Source: Candidatus Riesia pediculicola (GTDB taxonomy: Bacteria; Pseudomonadota; Gammaproteobacteria; Enterobacterales; Enterobacteriaceae). Taken from it: DNA of 64,000 nucleotides. The notes beneath the pieces were generated by a model that saw nothing but the letters and a program-made list of their open reading frames with translations, had not been told where the DNA came from and made no database searches. Position 1 is the stretch's first letter; every line of letters begins with the position of its first letter. The position numbers were made by a program, and so were the translations under genes. Below, one piece after another: positions 12,701-62,387 of the stretch. Where the stretch lies: NCBI RefSeq assembly GCF_002073915.1, contig NZ_CP012841.1, forward strand, positions 440,904 to 504,903. The letters are read 5' to 3'.

Positions 12701-13627
12701 TTAATAAAGAATTTTTCCTACTAATTTTGAGAAAGACATGCCTGATTGTTCAGCGGCAATCTTAACTAAACTCCGATCAGTCATTCCTGGAACAGTGTTA
12801 ATTTCTAATAAATAGAAGTTTCCGTCATAGTTTTGCTTGAGATCTACTCTGGATAATCCAAAACAACCTATTGCTTTATAAGCAGCTAATGCAATTTTTT
12901 TGATTAGAATTTCTTTTGATTGACTTGAACCTCCTGGACAAATGTACTCTACGAACTTATCATATTTATTTCCATAAGAAAATATTTCATCTCCATATAG
13001 ATCAATTTTAATCGAGGGTAATATGTAGTACGGATTTAAGATCGATACAGTATATTCTGGACCAATTATGTATTTTTCTATAATAATGTACTGATCATAC
13101 TTAAAAGATTCTACCAGAATTCTTTCGGCTTCTTTCAAAGAGAACGCTTTTCTTACTCCTATACTGGATCCTTCTGAGTCAGGTTTAATTATTAAAGGAA
13201 ATCCAATTTTTTTAAAAACAGAAGATATTGCAGATCTAGGTTGCATAAAAAAAGATTTTTTATTAATATAAAAAAAAGGAGCTGTTGGTAATTTTAAAGA
13301 AAACCATATTTTTTTGGTCAAAATTTTGTGTGTTCCTATAAAAGAAGAGTAAAAACCATTTCCTGTATAATTCATCTTGAATTTGTCTAATATTCTTTGA
13401 ATTGTTCCATCTTCTCCATTTTTTCCATGCAATGCAATGAAAATTTTATCATACCGAACAGAAGCGATGCGATCGATACTAAATTGGTATTTGGTATCGA
13501 TCAGATCCGATTGAATTCCGAGGTCTTTTAAAGAATTTGCTATGTTCTTTCCAGACTTTAAAGAAATCGTTCTTTCACTAGAATTTCCACCATATAGTAT
13601 TGCAACTTTCAATTCTTTATATCTCAT
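12701..13627 (-). CDS. ddlB: D-alanine--D-alanine ligase
   Basis: ATP-grasp enzyme that joins two D-Ala to make the dipeptide added by MurF. The protein has 308 residues (306 in E. coli DdlB). Present are YGGNSSER near the N-terminus, the ATP-binding IIKPDSEGSSIGV around residue 155, LSRVDL and the Mg-binding LLEINTVPGMT near the C-terminus. Its ATG lies inside the end of murC (11-base overlap), so translation is probably coupled. D-Ala comes from Alr, encoded at 4.5-5.6 kb. Confidence 0.97.
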   Translation of the reverse strand: MRYKELKVAILYGGNSSERTISLKSGKNIANSLKDLGIQSDLIDTKYQFSIDRIASVRYDKIFIALHGKNGEDGTIQRILDKFKMNYTGNGFYSSFIGTHKILTKKIWFSLKLPTAPFFYINKKSFFMQPRSAISSVFKKIGFPLIIKPDSEGSSIGVRKAFSLKEAERILVESFKYDQYIIIEKYIIGPEYTVSILNPYYILPSIKIDLYGDEIFSYGNKYDKFVEYICPGGSSQSKEILIKKIALAAYKAIGCFGLSRVDLKQNYDGNFYLLEINTVPGMTDRSLVKIAAEQSGMSFSKLVGKILY

Positions 13628-15074
13628 ATTTACCTATTGGATGCGATATTTTTTTAATAGTATTGCATATCTTTATGCAATCATATTCAGAGGCGCTTTG
13701 AACTAAAATGATATCTTTATTTTGAATAACTTTTTTTAAAATATCGATCAATTGATCTTCTTTAAAAAAGAGAAAAGATGTATTTTTTTTTCTGTTTTTC
13801 ATCTCTTGATGAAACGAAAAAACATTTAATTTAGATATTTCCCTTTCCCCTGAAGAACATATTTCAGTGATCAATAATAAATCTACTTTTTCTAGCACAT
13901 TCAAAAAGTAATTATAAAATTTTTGAAATCTGGTATATCGATGAGGTTGAAAGATCATTATTATCCTATTTCTTTTCCATCCTACTCTTATCGTTTCAAT
14001 AGTAAATCGAATAGCATTAGGATGATGACCATAATCACTGATTAATAAGAATTTACAAAAATTTCCATCTTGATTTTTAAGAATAAATTTTCCTAAAAAA
14101 TCTAACCTATTAGAAACTCCTTTGAAGCATTTTATAGATTTTTGTATTCTATCTTCTTTAATTCCGAAAAGTTTTCCTAATATGATAGTTGAAGTTGCAT
14201 TTAAAACATTATGTACCCCAGGAGTATTCATCTGAAATGAATAGATAGAATGAGATGGATCCAAAATGGAAAAGTGACATCGATTTTTTTTTTGTTCATA
14301 AGAAAGAATTCTAAAATGAGAATCTTTTCTAAATCCATATGTTATCATTTGACAATGTATATTTTTTATAATAGATCGAATAGCTGAATTTTCTATACAT
14401 AGTATCACTTTGGAAAAGTGAGATAATTTTTGAATAAATTTCAAGAAAGTATGTTTTAACTTTTTAAAACTATTTTCATAGTTATTAATATGATCTACTT
14501 CTAAACCGGTAACTATCAGAACTGAAGGGTCAAATTGGAGAAAAATAGGATGGCTTTCGTCCATTTCTATGACTACTATTTCATTTCTTTCATTCCAATA
14601 TGCACATTCTTTTAATGATTTTGAAAATCCTCCGATTATGTAATTTGGATGAAAGTTTTCGTTTTTTAACATTTCAGAAATCATAGAAGTTGTAGTTGTT
14701 TTTCCATGAGTTCCTGTTATAACTATACTGAATCTGTTCTTCACTATTTCAGATAATATTTCGATTCTATGAAAAACAGGAATGTTATATTTTTGTGCTT
14801 CAACGATTTCGACGTTATCCTGTGAAATTGCTGAAGAGATGACGATCAAATCTGATCCAATAACATTTTTAGGTCGATGAAAAAAATTAATCTTTGCTCC
14901 CATTGAAATTAATTGGTCTGTCATTTTATTCTTTAGAAGATCGGAACCATATATTTCATATCCAGATTCGATTAAGACTTTTGCTAAGCTTCCCATTCCG
15001 ACACCTCCTATACCGATTAAATAAATTTTAACTTTAGAAGGATTGTTTCTTGATAATAGTTCTTTTAAATTCAT
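13617..15074 (-). CDS. murC: UDP-N-acetylmuramate--L-alanine ligase
   Basis: Adds L-Ala, the first residue of the stem peptide, to UDP-MurNAc in the cytoplasm. The protein has 485 residues (491 in E. coli). It has the Mur-ligase Rossmann start IGIGGVGMGSLA, the P-loop TGTHGKTTTT near residue 120, and the C-terminal FQPHRYTRF. murB does not adjoin it, in line with enterobacterial rather than Legionella or Pseudomonas gene order. murG lies 37 bases upstream and ddlB overlaps it at the 3' end. Confidence 0.97.
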   Translation of the reverse strand: MNLKELLSRNNPSKVKIYLIGIGGVGMGSLAKVLIESGYEIYGSDLLKNKMTDQLISMGAKINFFHRPKNVIGSDLIVISSAISQDNVEIVEAQKYNIPVFHRIEILSEIVKNRFSIVITGTHGKTTTTSMISEMLKNENFHPNYIIGGFSKSLKECAYWNERNEIVVIEMDESHPIFLQFDPSVLIVTGLEVDHINNYENSFKKLKHTFLKFIQKLSHFSKVILCIENSAIRSIIKNIHCQMITYGFRKDSHFRILSYEQKKNRCHFSILDPSHSIYSFQMNTPGVHNVLNATSTIILGKLFGIKEDRIQKSIKCFKGVSNRLDFLGKFILKNQDGNFCKFLLISDYGHHPNAIRFTIETIRVGWKRNRIIMIFQPHRYTRFQKFYNYFLNVLEKVDLLLITEICSSGEREISKLNVFSFHQEMKNRKKNTSFLFFKEDQLIDILKKVIQNKDIILVQSASEYDCIKICNTIKKISHPIGKYEI

Positions 15075-15111
15075 TTTAATATTTTTGTTTAGTTCTAAAC
15101 TGTAATGATTT

Positions 15112-16185
15112 TTATTTTTTTGAAGATATGATTAGATTTTTTACAATTTTTTCTTCTGAATTCCGTACAAATAAGATACTTTTAAATTTTTTTGATATCC
15201 TAGATATTTCATCACGATTCCATTTTTTTAATTGATTAATCAATTTTTCAGAAAAAAAATTCGATTGTTCAATAATTTTAATGAGTCCAGATTTAATTAA
15301 AGGTTCAATATTCCGGTATTGATGATTATCTCGGTGTTTGTAAGGAACAAAAATGGTCGGTAATCCTATTGAATCTATTTCACTAACTGTCATGGCTCCG
15401 GATCTTCCAATGAGAATATCTGCCCAACGATAAGCCGAAGCAATATCTTGTATAAACTCAATAGTTTTATAACAATTTTCTTGAACACGAAGTCTTTTAT
15501 ATCTTTCTAGGGTAGAACTCTTCTTTCCTAAACCAGTTTGATGAAGGATTAAAACTTTGTTACAGATTTTCGAGGCAACTTTCGGTATTTTTTTGTTAAA
15601 AATGTCAGATCCTTGACTACCTCCTATCACTAAAACTCGAACTTTTCCAATTCTTTCATAAATTCTATATTTTGCAAATGGAATCGATAATATTTCTTTC
15701 CGAATTGGATTTCCTACAGTTTGAGCTTGAGAAAAAGTTTTGGGATAGGCTTGCAAAATTTTAGAAGCAACTTTTGATAACAATCTATTTGTTAATCCTG
15801 CAACTTTATTTTGTTCATGCAAGACCATCGGAATTCTGCAAATCCAAGATGCTACTCCGCTTGGAGCAGATACATATCCTCCTAATCCAAAAACAACATT
15901 TGGTTTATGTTTTCGAATAATTTTGATTGATTGTATTATCGAGAAAACTAGCTCAAAAAATTTTTTAAAATATTGAAAAAAATTCCTTCTTTTTAATCTA
16001 GAAATTTTTATAGTTTCTAAAATAAATCCGTATTTTGGAACAATGTTTCGTTCCATTCCTGTTTTCGATCCGATCCATATCACGTCCCATTGTATCTTTC
16101 TGAAATGTTGAGCAATTATTATTCCTGGAAATATATGACCTCCTGTTCCTCCGGATATAATGATTATTTTTTGAATTTGATTCAT
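15112..16185 (-). CDS. murG: UDP-GlcNAc:undecaprenyl-PP-MurNAc-pentapeptide GlcNAc transferase
   Basis: Membrane-associated glycosyltransferase that converts lipid I to lipid II. The protein has 357 residues (355 in E. coli). The N-terminal lipid-contact loop is SGGTGGHIFPG, the second G loop is VFGLGGYVSAP, and the C-terminal GT-B nucleotide site includes VLVIGGSQGSDIFN and GRSGAMTVSEI. It starts 4 bases after the ftsW stop, so the two are certainly cotranscribed. Confidence 0.97.
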   Translation of the reverse strand: MNQIQKIIIISGGTGGHIFPGIIIAQHFRKIQWDVIWIGSKTGMERNIVPKYGFILETIKISRLKRRNFFQYFKKFFELVFSIIQSIKIIRKHKPNVVFGLGGYVSAPSGVASWICRIPMVLHEQNKVAGLTNRLLSKVASKILQAYPKTFSQAQTVGNPIRKEILSIPFAKYRIYERIGKVRVLVIGGSQGSDIFNKKIPKVASKICNKVLILHQTGLGKKSSTLERYKRLRVQENCYKTIEFIQDIASAYRWADILIGRSGAMTVSEIDSIGLPTIFVPYKHRDNHQYRNIEPLIKSGLIKIIEQSNFFSEKLINQLKKWNRDEISRISKKFKSILFVRNSEEKIVKNLIISSKK

Positions 16186-16189
16186 ATAA

Positions 16190-17299
16190 TTACCTTCTAA
16201 ATGCTTGAATTTTATTCATTTTAGTCTCAAAATCTATCCTTAATAATATTGCAATCTTAATACAAGTTATTAACTTACTAGAACCTCCGTAACTGATTAT
16301 CGGCAACGTGGTTCCTTTTATCGGTAGAATTCCTATAGAAGATCCTATATTGATAATGGATTGTATGATTATTAATAAACTAATTGAGTAAGCTAAAAAT
16401 CCAGAAAAATATTGAAAATCTTTCAAAGCGTTTCTTCCAATATTCATTCCCTGAAAAAATATAAAAAACAAAGATATCACTATCATTGCAATGCCTAAAT
16501 ATCCCAGTTCTTCTCCAATGATAGATATGATAAAATCCGTGTGAGGTTCTGGAAGGAAATTTATTTTTTGAATTGAGTTTCCGATGCCCTGTCCGAACAT
16601 TTTTCCTCTTCCAAAAGATAACATAGAATGAACCAATTGATATCCATCTCCTAAATAATTAGACCAAGGATTCAAAAAAGATATTAATCTTTTTGCTCTA
16701 TATGAACGAAAATATATTAAAGATAGAACTATCGTTGTAAAGATGGCACTGCTTGCTGATAGAAAAAGAAAGTTTTTTCCAATCAAAAATAGCATAAATA
16801 AAAGAGATGAATATAATATTACTAACGTTCCAAAATCGGGTTGTGATAAAAGTAATTTAGATACGATAAGAATTATAGAAATTAATTGAATTGTGGAAGT
16901 TTTTTTGTTTTTTTCAGATAGATAAGAAGATAAATAGCAAGAAAAAGATATTTTTACTAGTTCAGAAGGCTGAATAAATGCAATTTTAATATTTATCCAT
17001 CTTTTTGCTCCATGGTTTGATATTCCAAAATAATTCAATGTGAGCAATAATATTATGGAACATAATATTAATTTATTCTTATTCTTTTTCCACTTATATA
17101 TAGGTACATTAAATACAAAAATCATACATAAGATGGATATGATTGAATGAATGAAGTTCTTCTTTAAAAAAGATAGATAATCTGTTCTTATTCGATTTCC
17201 AACAGATACGGAAGAAGAACCTACCATGATGATGCTAAAGATTAACAAAATGATCGTGACTGATAGAAGAGATCGATTATAGAGATGAGATTTTTTCAT
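16190..17299 (-). CDS. ftsW: Septal peptidoglycan glycosyltransferase FtsW
   Basis: SEDS-family polymerase that joins lipid II into septal glycan together with FtsI. The protein has 369 residues against 414 in E. coli; the shortening is mainly at the N-terminal cytoplasmic tail. Many hydrophobic segments are seen, consistent with about ten helices. Conserved SEDS stretches are IQPSELVKI, NPWSNYLGDGYQL, the loop PEPHTDFI with its conserved Asp, EELGYLG, and GTTLPIISYGGSS near the end. murD lies 21 bases upstream and murG follows directly. Confidence 0.96.
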   Translation of the reverse strand: MKKSHLYNRSLLSVTIILLIFSIIMVGSSSVSVGNRIRTDYLSFLKKNFIHSIISILCMIFVFNVPIYKWKKNKNKLILCSIILLLTLNYFGISNHGAKRWINIKIAFIQPSELVKISFSCYLSSYLSEKNKKTSTIQLISIILIVSKLLLSQPDFGTLVILYSSLLFMLFLIGKNFLFLSASSAIFTTIVLSLIYFRSYRAKRLISFLNPWSNYLGDGYQLVHSMLSFGRGKMFGQGIGNSIQKINFLPEPHTDFIISIIGEELGYLGIAMIVISLFFIFFQGMNIGRNALKDFQYFSGFLAYSISLLIIIQSIINIGSSIGILPIKGTTLPIISYGGSSKLITCIKIAILLRIDFETKMNKIQAFRR

Positions 17300-17320
17300 C
17301 TTTTGAATGCTTTCTTAAAG

Positions 17321-34023: not shown

Positions 34024-34518
34024 TGTCAAATTTTTCTTAATCTATTTTCTCAATTGGTAAATCTTTACTTGGAGATATGATCCGATTTCGTACAGAAATT
34101 AAATTTGAGTAACCTAATCAATCTTCTCGAATTGATTTTCAAAAATTAAATCGTTAAAATATTTTTCCCATGTGAAAATTTTTTTTTAATTTTTCTGGAT
34201 AATCTATTAATAGTTTTTGTAAAAGTTTTTATATGAATCAGAGAAAAACTGTCATTTTAAAAGAAATCTAAAAAGACTTTTGATAAAAAAATTACCAAAT
34301 GAAATCGAGATGTTTTTAGTATATTTTTTTAATATTTTATGTCAACTGGTATCTTTCATTAAAATTTTTTTTGAATTGAAATATTTGAAATTAAAAAATA
34401 TTTTGTAATTTTTTATATAAATCAAGTTTTAAAATTTTTAAGAAAAAGTTAGACATTTCTTATTTTAAAATTTAAGTATTTTGAAAAAGACTTTCGGTTA
34501 ATTCTCTCGAAGAGTATT
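34024..34518. other. Gene-free stretch between tRNA-Arg and prmB
   Basis: About 500 A+T-rich bases with stops in all frames. Nothing is recognised. It should contain the promoters of tRNA-Arg (minus strand) and prmB (plus strand). Confidence 0.5.
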
Positions 34519-35441
34519 ATGAAAAATAAGTATCAAAACATAAATAATGAAATACTAGAGATGTGCACTATCAAAGATGTGCTCAGATTGATGGTGACCA
34601 AACTTAATGATTCAGATGTTTGCTACGGACAAGGAACAGATAATTCATTCGATGAAGCTGTGTATCTTCTATTTTCCACAATTAAATTATCAACCGATGT
34701 TCCAGAGATTTTTTTGTCTTCTCGTTTAACTCGTTCAGAAAAAAAGAAAATTGCAGAAGTTTTGATTTCAAGAATATTCGATAGAATACCCTCAGCCTAC
34801 TTAACTAATGTAATCTGGTTTTGTGAACACGAGCTTTATGTAGATGAAAGAGTATTCATTCCAAGATCCCCTATCTCAGAATTGATTGATAATAATTTTG
34901 AATCTATTATAAACGTGGAACCAAAGAAAATTTTAGATCTTTGTACTGGAAGTGGATGTATAGCCATTTCTTGCGCACACATCTTTAAAAATTCGGAAAT
35001 AGAAGCATCGGATATCTCTAGAGAGGCGTTGGAGGTTGCTCGGAAAAATATAGAGTTGCATTCTCTTTCTGAAAGAATATTTTGATTCATTCCGATCTAT
35101 TTACTAGCATTCCACCAAAGAAATATGATCTTATTATTACAAATCCTCCTTATGTCGATCAAAAAACATTGGGAATGTTGCCAAAAGAATATCAAATGGA
35201 ACCAGTTATTTCTTTAAGAGCTGGAGAAGATGGTTTGAAATTTATAAAAAAGATACTACGATATTCTTCTTATTTTTTGAACGAGAATGGACTGTTAATA
35301 TGTGAAGTTGGCGAAAATATAATGAATTTGTTCAGTCGTTTTCCAAAGGTTAATTTTAAAATTTTAAAATTAAAAAATAAAGGAAAAGGAGTGTTCTGTA
35401 TTGGAAAGAGACAGATTTTTGAAAACCAAAAATTTTTTTAA
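34519..35441 (+). pseudogene. prmB: PrmB, ribosomal protein L3 glutamine methyltransferase, one frameshift
   Basis: PrmB methylates a glutamine of ribosomal protein L3. The two halves together match the 310-residue E. coli protein throughout. Codons from 34519 read CYGQGTDNSFDEAV, VDERVFIPRSPI and LDLCTGSGCIAI (SAM motif I), then stop at TGA 35083-35085. The rest, with the catalytic NPPYVD, continues in the next frame from 35082. One T is missing in TTTT at 35080-35083; with five T the frame reads through. The stop overlaps a TTG (TTGA), so a split, coupled pair is conceivable. Otherwise it is a recent pseudogene or a sequencing error. Both halves remain well conserved, so any loss is young. 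It sits next to aroC as in E. coli. Confidence 0.85.
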
Positions 35442-48604: not shown

Positions 48605-49634
48605 AAAAATAAGGAATTTTTGAAAGAACTTACTTTGAAGAGTTTTTGATATTCTCAATTTGTCGAAATTTTCTAACACATCAAAAAATACGAATTGATT
48701 ATGGATAACTTTTTAGATTATCGACTGGGGTTAATAAATATCGAAAGAAAAATGCAACAAGAAGATCATTTATCTATTTTTAATCAAATTGAGAGATATT
48801 GTTTAGATATAAACTTCATTATAATTGAGCAATTTATTGAAATCAATAATGAATTTATATTTTCTATCTAAATAAAATTGACTGATCAAATATTCGGTTT
48901 TAAGTATACATTCTCAAATATTTTTGCTTCTTTATAAAATGATAAAATGATAATGCTTGCATCTTTCCAAATTAAATCTTTTATTTAAGTCACTTCGATT
49001 GACTTAAATTATATAAGCATTTCTTAAGTTTGTAGAACATAATCTTTGGAAGATTTTTTAAAAATAATGATAAAAATTATTCTTTTTTATTTTTAAATGA
49101 GATCAATTAAAATTTTTTACAAATTCATTTTTCGTTTAGAGTGTTAAATCATTTTCCTAAATAAAAAAATAAATTTCTTGATAAGTTTCTTAAATTTTTT
49201 TTAAAAGACAAACCATTTTAAAGAAACTTCTTTCAAAGAAATCATTTAATGATTTAGCACTAACTTTTGGAAATTTAATTAAAGTGTGCTTATAATTTTT
49301 ATGTTGAAGCGATTGTGAAAATACTTTCTTTTGAATCTGACCTTCAAAAATATTTAAAAATTAGTTTTTGAATGAAATTAGGACATCATGTAAGCTTATC
49401 TTTAAGATTTAATCGAATAGTTTTGTTGATAGTAAAACGATTATTGAAAGAAGATGATATTTATTAAATATTAGAGATTTTTTCAGAAAGATTTTTTAAT
49501 TGAAAAAATTTTTTCTTTAGTAACAAAATTTTTTCAAGAAATAAAGAATAAAAATTTTTGTTTGAAACTTAATTATACTACTTTTTAATGTTTTTATTAA
49601 AAATTAGATTTTATAAAAGAAGGAATCGTAAATA
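48605..49634. other. Gene-free stretch between yibN and coaD
   Basis: About 1 kb with dense stops. One short open frame at 48699-48869 (plus strand, ATG, 56 codons) has no recognisable family and is probably chance. In E. coli waaA precedes coaD; no trace of it is seen. The divergent yibN and coaD promoters must lie here. Confidence 0.5.
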
Positions 49635-50130
49635 ATGAAAAAAAAATCGGCTATCTATTCTGGAAGCTTTGATCCTCCTACTATAGGGCATGTAGACATC
49701 ATCGTCCGAGCTTCTTCCATATTTGATCAAATTATTGTAGGAATAGCTAATAATCTAAAAAAAAACACTTCTTTCTATTGAAGAGAGGATTTTTTTTATA
49801 AAGGAAAGTACTAAATTTATTAAAAACGTTCAAGTGAAAAAAATTCCGGGATTAGTAGTAGATTTTGCAAGATCAAACAAAATAGATATCTTGATAAGAT
49901 CTATTAGATGTATTATTGATCTTGAGTATGAAAAGAAAATCGCATTTCTAAATAAGAAAATTTCAAGTAATTTGGAAACGATATTTTTACTTTCTTCTTA
50001 TGATTCTTCCTTTATTTCTTCTTCCTTAGTGAAGGAAATAGCATATTACGGAGGAAATATCTCTAGATTTTTACCAAAACCTGTGAGGAAAGATCTAAAT
50101 CGCACAATTCTCAGAAAAATAAATTTATAA
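49635..50130 (+). CDS. coaD: Phosphopantetheine adenylyltransferase, frameshifted in an A9 run
   Basis: CoaD adenylates 4'-phosphopantetheine, the penultimate step of coenzyme A synthesis. The first frame has YSGSFDPPTIGHVDII with the nucleotide-binding T/HxGH, then stops at TGA 49779-49781. The remainder (IEERIFFIKES, FARSNKIDILIRSIR, SSFISSSLVKEIA, FLPKPVR) continues in another frame to 50130 and matches E. coli CoaD to the end. The break lies in nine A at 49757-49765; eight A would restore one frame of about 164 codons (159 in E. coli). CoaD is essential in E. coli and both halves are well conserved, so rescue by polymerase slippage on the A-run is plausible. Alternatives are a pseudogene or a sequencing error. 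rpmG-rpmB follow, as in E. coli. Confidence 0.82.
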
Positions 50131-61854: not shown

Positions 61855-62277
61855 TTATGACTTTTGAAAAAATTTTAATGAAAAATTCTTTCTTTTCAAG
61901 ATATTAGAAAATCTTGGTTTAGGAGGCATCTTTTCATATATTCTAATTCTATTTTTTTTAATATCGCATTCAGTAACTTTATAATCTTTCCACAAAGAAA
62001 CATATTGAATAACAGATTTTGGCCATCTAAAGTTTACCTTAAATCCCCGATTTATACATTCTTTCTGTAGAAGCATATATCTTTTATATAAGAATAATAG
62101 CTTGTCTCTAAAGAAAATTACATGTCCTTTTCCTAAGATATATTGTGAAACTTTAGAAATTTTTACTAATCCAAACTTTTTAATCACATAATTAGGAATT
62201 CTAATAATTTCCATGTTTTCAGCCAATAAGTGTTGATCGCATAATTCAATCGGTTGAACAACATTAATTCTAGTCAT
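61855..62277 (-). CDS. pdg: Pyrimidine dimer DNA glycosylase/AP lyase (T4 endonuclease V family)
   Basis: Cuts the glycosyl bond at cyclobutane pyrimidine dimers and nicks the abasic site. From the ATG at 62277 the protein has 140 residues (138 in T4 DenV). It begins MTRIN; in the T4 enzyme the free amine of Thr2 is the nucleophile, so this start, not the ATG at 62286, must be used. ELCDQHLLAE, Glu23 and Arg26 are kept, but T4 Arg22 is Met here. YILGKGHVIFF and LYKRY match the core. The C-terminal third is diverged, though RIYEKMPPKPRF fits the bacterial relatives. Flanked by alsT and tRNA-Leu(CAA). Not part of the conserved E. coli gene set, so it was probably acquired by an ancestor. Confidence 0.85.
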   Translation of the reverse strand: MTRINVVQPIELCDQHLLAENMEIIRIPNYVIKKFGLVKISKVSQYILGKGHVIFFRDKLLFLYKRYMLLQKECINRGFKVNFRWPKSVIQYVSLWKDYKVTECDIKKNRIRIYEKMPPKPRFSNILKRKNFSLKFFQKS

Positions 62278-62387
62278 ATAGGTCATAATAAATAAATTGG
62301 AAAACTCAAAATATATTCAATTTTTAATTTTTGATCGATGAAAATTCATTAATTTTTAGAAGTTATGCAGAATTCTATTCAATTCCT

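Follow-up and report, generated by a model that had tools for sequence, protein, structure and literature searches.

Every cell needs CoA. The chief benefit that lice are considered to draw from Candidatus Riesia pediculicola is a supply of pantothenate (PMC4232544). In this symbiont, the coaD gene for phosphopantetheine adenylyltransferase lies in two reading frames, which raises the question of whether this gene is dying or still supplies an enzyme. We addressed this question in a window of 64,000 nucleotides (contig NZ_CP012841.1, positions 440,904 to 504,903) and in related genomes. Our comparisons suggest that coaD is probably a working gene with an old frameshift, read through slippage of RNA polymerase.

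Two coaD frames and their meeting point

The two frames of coaD span 49635-50130 on the + strand. The 5' half is an ATG ORF of 48 aa in frame 0 (49635-49781, +) that carries the motif GSFDPPTIGH and ends at TGA 49779-49781. A putative Shine-Dalgarno-like element, AGAAGGAA, was found by eye at 49618-49625 (+), 9 nt upstream of the ATG. The 3' half, 123 aa plus a stop in the second frame (49759-50130, +), carries ISSSLVKE at 50014-50037, and there is no further stop inside either half. When compared to TIGR01510, the 5' half matches positions 2-43 (58.2 bits) and the 3' half matches positions 39-153 of 155 (110.7 bits, with a cut-off of 103.3). The profile is matched over its whole length, but the match is split across two frames. 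An earlier sequence-only reading had described two halves that match CoaD and keep its motifs, divided by a frameshift at a run of nine A, and these data bear out both points.

The two frames can be joined only within 49759-49778. The dominant feature of this 20-nt overlap is the A9 run at 49757-49765 (+), a candidate slippage site that encodes the Lys42 loop; seven of its nine A fall within the overlap. Upstream, the second frame is bounded by a TAA at 49756-49758 (+), and an identical TAA is found in the sister genome, G001, from the symbiont of the chimpanzee louse. Because this TAA is present in both genomes, the frame shift must occur downstream of it. The break had been placed exactly in the run; A9 itself is the likeliest site, though not strictly proven, and a join is possible anywhere in the overlap. 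With one break bounded to 20 nt in a long A run and the remainder of the gene intact, coaD resembles other homopolymer frameshifts. Scans for repeats and promoters gave nothing usable.

Conservation of the break and of the CoA pathway

We compared the tract with that of a relative, much as the sequence-only reading had proposed. In G001, coaD is broken at the same place, with A9 and the TAA both unchanged and with 347 of 493 positions identical to the window's genome (G000) in an ungapped alignment (~70%). The longest identical stretch within coaD is a 20-nt block at 49756-49775 (+). We rejected this block as proof of constraint because it is only mildly unusual: 1693 of 20000 shuffles reach a run of this length. 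Aside from the A9 of coaD, there are 22 runs of at least nine A or T in the window's conserved ORFs, and just one is unbroken at that length in G001. This is an A10 in the intact ORF at 13620-15131 (-).

We further compared substitution rates between G000 and G001. The N-half of coaD has a dN/dS of 0.167/1.296 (omega 0.13) and the C-half 0.262/1.22 (omega 0.21), compared with a median omega of 0.164 (range 0.039-0.276) for 48 ORF pairs of the syntenic region with at least 80 aligned codons and finite dS, among them the coaD C-half. Both halves are thus under ordinary purifying selection. Given these omega values and a dS above 1.2, the 3' half was maintained as protein, in its frame, through most of the divergence. 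The split between R. pediculischaeffi and R. pediculicola has been dated to ~5.4 My (PMC4232544). The break is shared between species without decay of the gene, and with both halves conserved as protein the split is more than chance. However, dN/dS dates the selection and not the break, and two recent parallel breaks are possible, although the same outcome would be needed twice.

The earlier reading had suggested looking for another CoaD, and one CoaD search of the whole genome (582,126 bases on two contigs, the larger of 574,389) found no second CoaD. The third match in this search, at 27 bits, is NadD and was discarded as a candidate. Both Riesia genomes have coaE, coaBC and coaA above the profile cut-offs and with no stops; the coaA match begins at profile position 73 in one genome and 67 in the other, of 310.

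Genomes in which coaD has been lost look different. Among the 40 relatives searched first, coaD is absent from G007 and G011, and in G022 it is a mere fragment with six stops; all three lack coaBC and an intact coaE. An intact coaE is present in five of five with coaD broken solely at a homopolymer (G000, G001, G140, G152 and G148) and in none of four with lost or decayed coaD (G007, G011, G022 and G399; Fisher p 0.008, from small sets chosen after seeing coaD, in which the two Riesia are not independent). The pathway is less uniform in its other genes. While coaBC is intact in G152, it is absent in G140, G148 and G399, and G019 has an intact coaD, coaA and coaE with no coaBC match. In G006, coaA is in pieces. 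Since both G140, with a broken coaD, and G019, with an intact one, are without coaBC, the CoA pathway is not always retained as a unit.

The Lys42 loop and its recurrence in relatives

When the halves are aligned individually, as proteins, to two full-length CoaDs, their junction falls at the invariant Lys42. In crystal structures of the enzyme (PPAT), Lys42 contacts the phosphate of phosphopantetheine (PMC12784347). The Lys42 alanine mutant of H. pylori PPAT has reduced but substantial activity according to the abstract and results of that study, and is worded as a loss of function in its conclusion (PMC12784347).

The loop has a prevailing length. The spacing from GH to EER is 30 residues in 103 of 110 CoaDs, 31-33 in seven and 29 in none, where the 110 are motif-pattern matches among 96 proteins plus coaD loci, some of them not independent of one another. 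With a looser pattern, 40 of 41 distinct loops have length 30 and the other has length 20. This last one (L026) is an early match of the loose pattern and was ignored. A Riesia transcript with eight A would be in frame with two lysines and a spacing of 29, whereas one with eleven A would be in frame with three lysines and a spacing of 30. The proposal that eight A would restore the gene is thus correct for the frame but not for the length of the loop.

A relative, G008 (L030), has an intact coaD with an in-frame A11 and three lysines at this loop. An identical loop is present in an Arsenophonus protein of 157 aa. The three-lysine A11 of G008, together with its match in Arsenophonus, suggests that the Riesia run lost two A from an ancestral A11, which we regard as the probable history. 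This same loop and the 30-residue norm point to the eleven-A transcript as the probable useful one. The A11 in the intact coaD of G008 should likewise yield slipped transcripts.

We also searched 392 genomes of the family, of which 327 match CoaD with an E-value no weaker than 1e-9. Among the matches listed, the best E-value is weaker than 1e-45 in seven of the 327 (G000, G001, G045, G140, G148, G152 and G399), a set picked by best E-value alone. Two of these, from other genera, have coaD broken at the same Lys42 loop, again among the matches listed: G140 in A10 and G152 in A9. Both frames are otherwise open in each, and by our count adding a single A, the commonest slip (PMC5574713), would bring the loop encoded by the mRNA to its usual length. 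In G148 (L088), the break lies in a T10 at about profile position 115, away from the loop. These three are single assemblies in which run errors are possible, and G148 has 8% contamination. Of the remaining candidates, G045 was dropped as a further split coaD because the genome is poor (49% complete) and shows several breaks. G399 was not accepted as a homopolymer break and is counted as decayed, having a match to positions 4-118 with a TAG, and a coaE fragment. Genomes of at most 1.4 Mb make up 53 of the 327 (hand count from rounded sizes), and all of those with broken coaD except G045 are among them.

What may be new in these observations is that breaks recur at a single active-site loop. 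It is conceivable, though we put this forward tentatively and with some doubt, that slippery sites arise repeatedly at the Lys42 loop and are tolerated there. An essential CoaD would then be produced, independently in several symbiont lineages, through an out-of-frame poly(A) that encodes the substrate-binding lysine, and the rate at which RNA polymerase slips would determine CoA output. A CoaD-like protein of 112 aa, P0016, from a contig of 605,233 bases of another source, is without the part up to EER; it may be a further split coaD or merely have a wrong start.

Explanations for a split but conserved coaD

The shared break, purifying selection on each half, the presence of the neighboring pathway genes and the recurrence in reduced genomes all argue for a working gene. 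The sequence-only reading had proposed such a gene, dependent on slippage; comparison supports the working gene, while we infer the slippage step, and with it the production of enzyme, a rescue during transcription and the class of transcript that serves. In the account we favor, with reasonable confidence, the DNA would carry an old frameshift at the A9 run. RNA polymerase would slip on this run and generate mRNAs of mixed A number. The classes with one A fewer or two A more than nine would be read as one full-length phosphopantetheine adenylyltransferase, and the plus-two class, with three lysines, should yield the better enzyme, since its Lys42 loop is of the usual length. In Buchnera, 151 of 157 insertions but only 16 of 57 deletions fall in runs (PMC5574713), a concentration of insertions that suits the longer product. 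Other results of that study speak against rescue by slippage. Slippage in A and T runs mostly inserts a single base (PMC5574713), and plus-one A, the commonest slip, does not restore the coaD frame in Riesia. The study also reports no Buchnera case of a transcription error restoring a frame.

A change of frame on the ribosome would give the same working gene by a different route. Here the ribosome, and not RNA polymerase, would shift on the A-rich lysine stretch, by plus one, by minus two or by sliding. The site offers two AAA codons followed by AAC, and we reason that a ribosomal minus-two shift would yield the identical three-lysine product. The A AAA AAC heptamer, however, would shift the ribosome by minus one, into a frame that is closed by a stop at offset 164 in the window and at offset 185 in G001. 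Folding of the 100 nt after the site does not surpass that of shuffles (z -0.18 and 0.33), and we rejected minus-one programmed ribosomal frameshifting on these two grounds. Another model is prfB, a programmed plus-one ribosomal frameshift with a conserved stop at the shift site. Like Riesia coaD, prfB involves a plus-one-type frame change in a needed gene, but the frame-0 stop of coaD differs between the two genomes, being TGA at codon 49 in the window and TAA at codon 56 in G001, and prfB-type frameshifting was rejected as well. Sliding of ribosomes along poly(A) does occur in E. coli systems, although in the cell-free reactions little product was made at A9 or A10 and much at A11 (PMC4363877). 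Taken together, weak sliding at A9, the closed minus-one frame, the unconserved stop and the lack of structure lead us to prefer transcriptional slippage, and we consider a ribosomal shift unlikely.

It is also rather improbable that coaD is dying after real, recent and separate inactivation in each species, with CoA or dephospho-CoA coming from the louse. The Lys42 loop does resemble a mutation hotspot, frame breaks confined to one species occur nearby (prmB in the window, ftsW and one further ORF in G001), and the selection signal between species could predate two recent breaks. Yet this scenario requires two independent recent events that both gave A9. The three other breaks affect one species each and, by our reading, lie outside long runs, and the four genomes with lost or decayed coaD have no intact coaE, whereas both Riesia retain coaE, coaBC and coaA. 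Homopolymers are error-prone in sequencing, but an error of sequencing or assembly is very improbable when A9 is found in two genomes that are ~70% identical in coaD. The C-half of G001 is identical over 118 aa to a protein of Ca. Riesia pediculischaeffi PTSU, whose Illumina-based draft (PMC4232544) has it as a separate protein. Likewise, the window's 98-aa C-half forms a protein cluster of two sequences on six contigs, and no near-identical full-length CoaD occurs among 79 matches. We attach equally little probability to an enzyme assembled from the two halves as independently made polypeptides. Both halves have open frames, and a TTG in G001 could start its C-half. Against this, the candidate C-half starts are not conserved (GTG at 49834 here, for 98 aa; TTG in G001, for 118 aa), the N-half ends differ between the genomes, and the junction sits within the active-site loop.

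Transcriptional slippage at coaD would have close parallels. The rescue of frameshifted genes by poly(A) slippage in Buchnera and Blochmannia, to which the sequence-only reading had referred, is documented with 12-50% corrected transcripts (PMC3017870, PMC5009743). The bearers of these genes (Tamas 2008; Wernegreen 2010; Williams and Wernegreen 2010) are likewise AT-rich obligate insect symbionts. As in Riesia coaD, such genes have one break in a long A run and are otherwise intact (PMC3017870), and some of the breaks are conserved between species, with rates as in intact genes (PMC3017870, PMC4389277). Riesia coaD differs in belonging to another lineage, in encoding an enzyme of the CoA pathway, in having its break in an active-site loop and in the recurrence of breaks at that loop in other genera. 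Homopolymer frameshifts with slippage rescue are thus already known in kind, and what would be new is the Riesia lineage and the coaD gene. Slippage of the dnaX type, on nine A or T in Thermus, gives useful products in both frames, while in Riesia coaD only the shifted product would be the full enzyme. The dnaX run is also of A9 type, and its mRNAs have up to six extra nucleotides (PMC5009743). We found no description of a coaD frameshift in Riesia in the literature searched; a figure in PMC4959230 compares CoA synthesis and includes Ca. Riesia pediculicola.

If our reading is correct, the only CoaD gene known in this lineage has been out of frame for millions of years. As an old break shared by two species, it would allow a test of the amount of protein obtainable through slippage, and scoring such genes as pseudogenes would misrepresent symbiont metabolism.

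Other frame breaks were observed in the region. A prmB-like gene at window positions 34453-35438 (+), whose best NCBIfam match is an L3 glutamine methyltransferase, is divided near a T4 into pieces of 210 and 122 aa, and its G001 copy is one ORF of 308 aa. The ftsW gene at 16193-17314 (-) is one ORF in the window, and its G001 copy is frame-broken at about residues 291-295 of 374, outside a long A run. An ORF of 153 aa at 61858-62316 (-), with no NCBIfam match, is broken in G001 at a repeated GTAAG.
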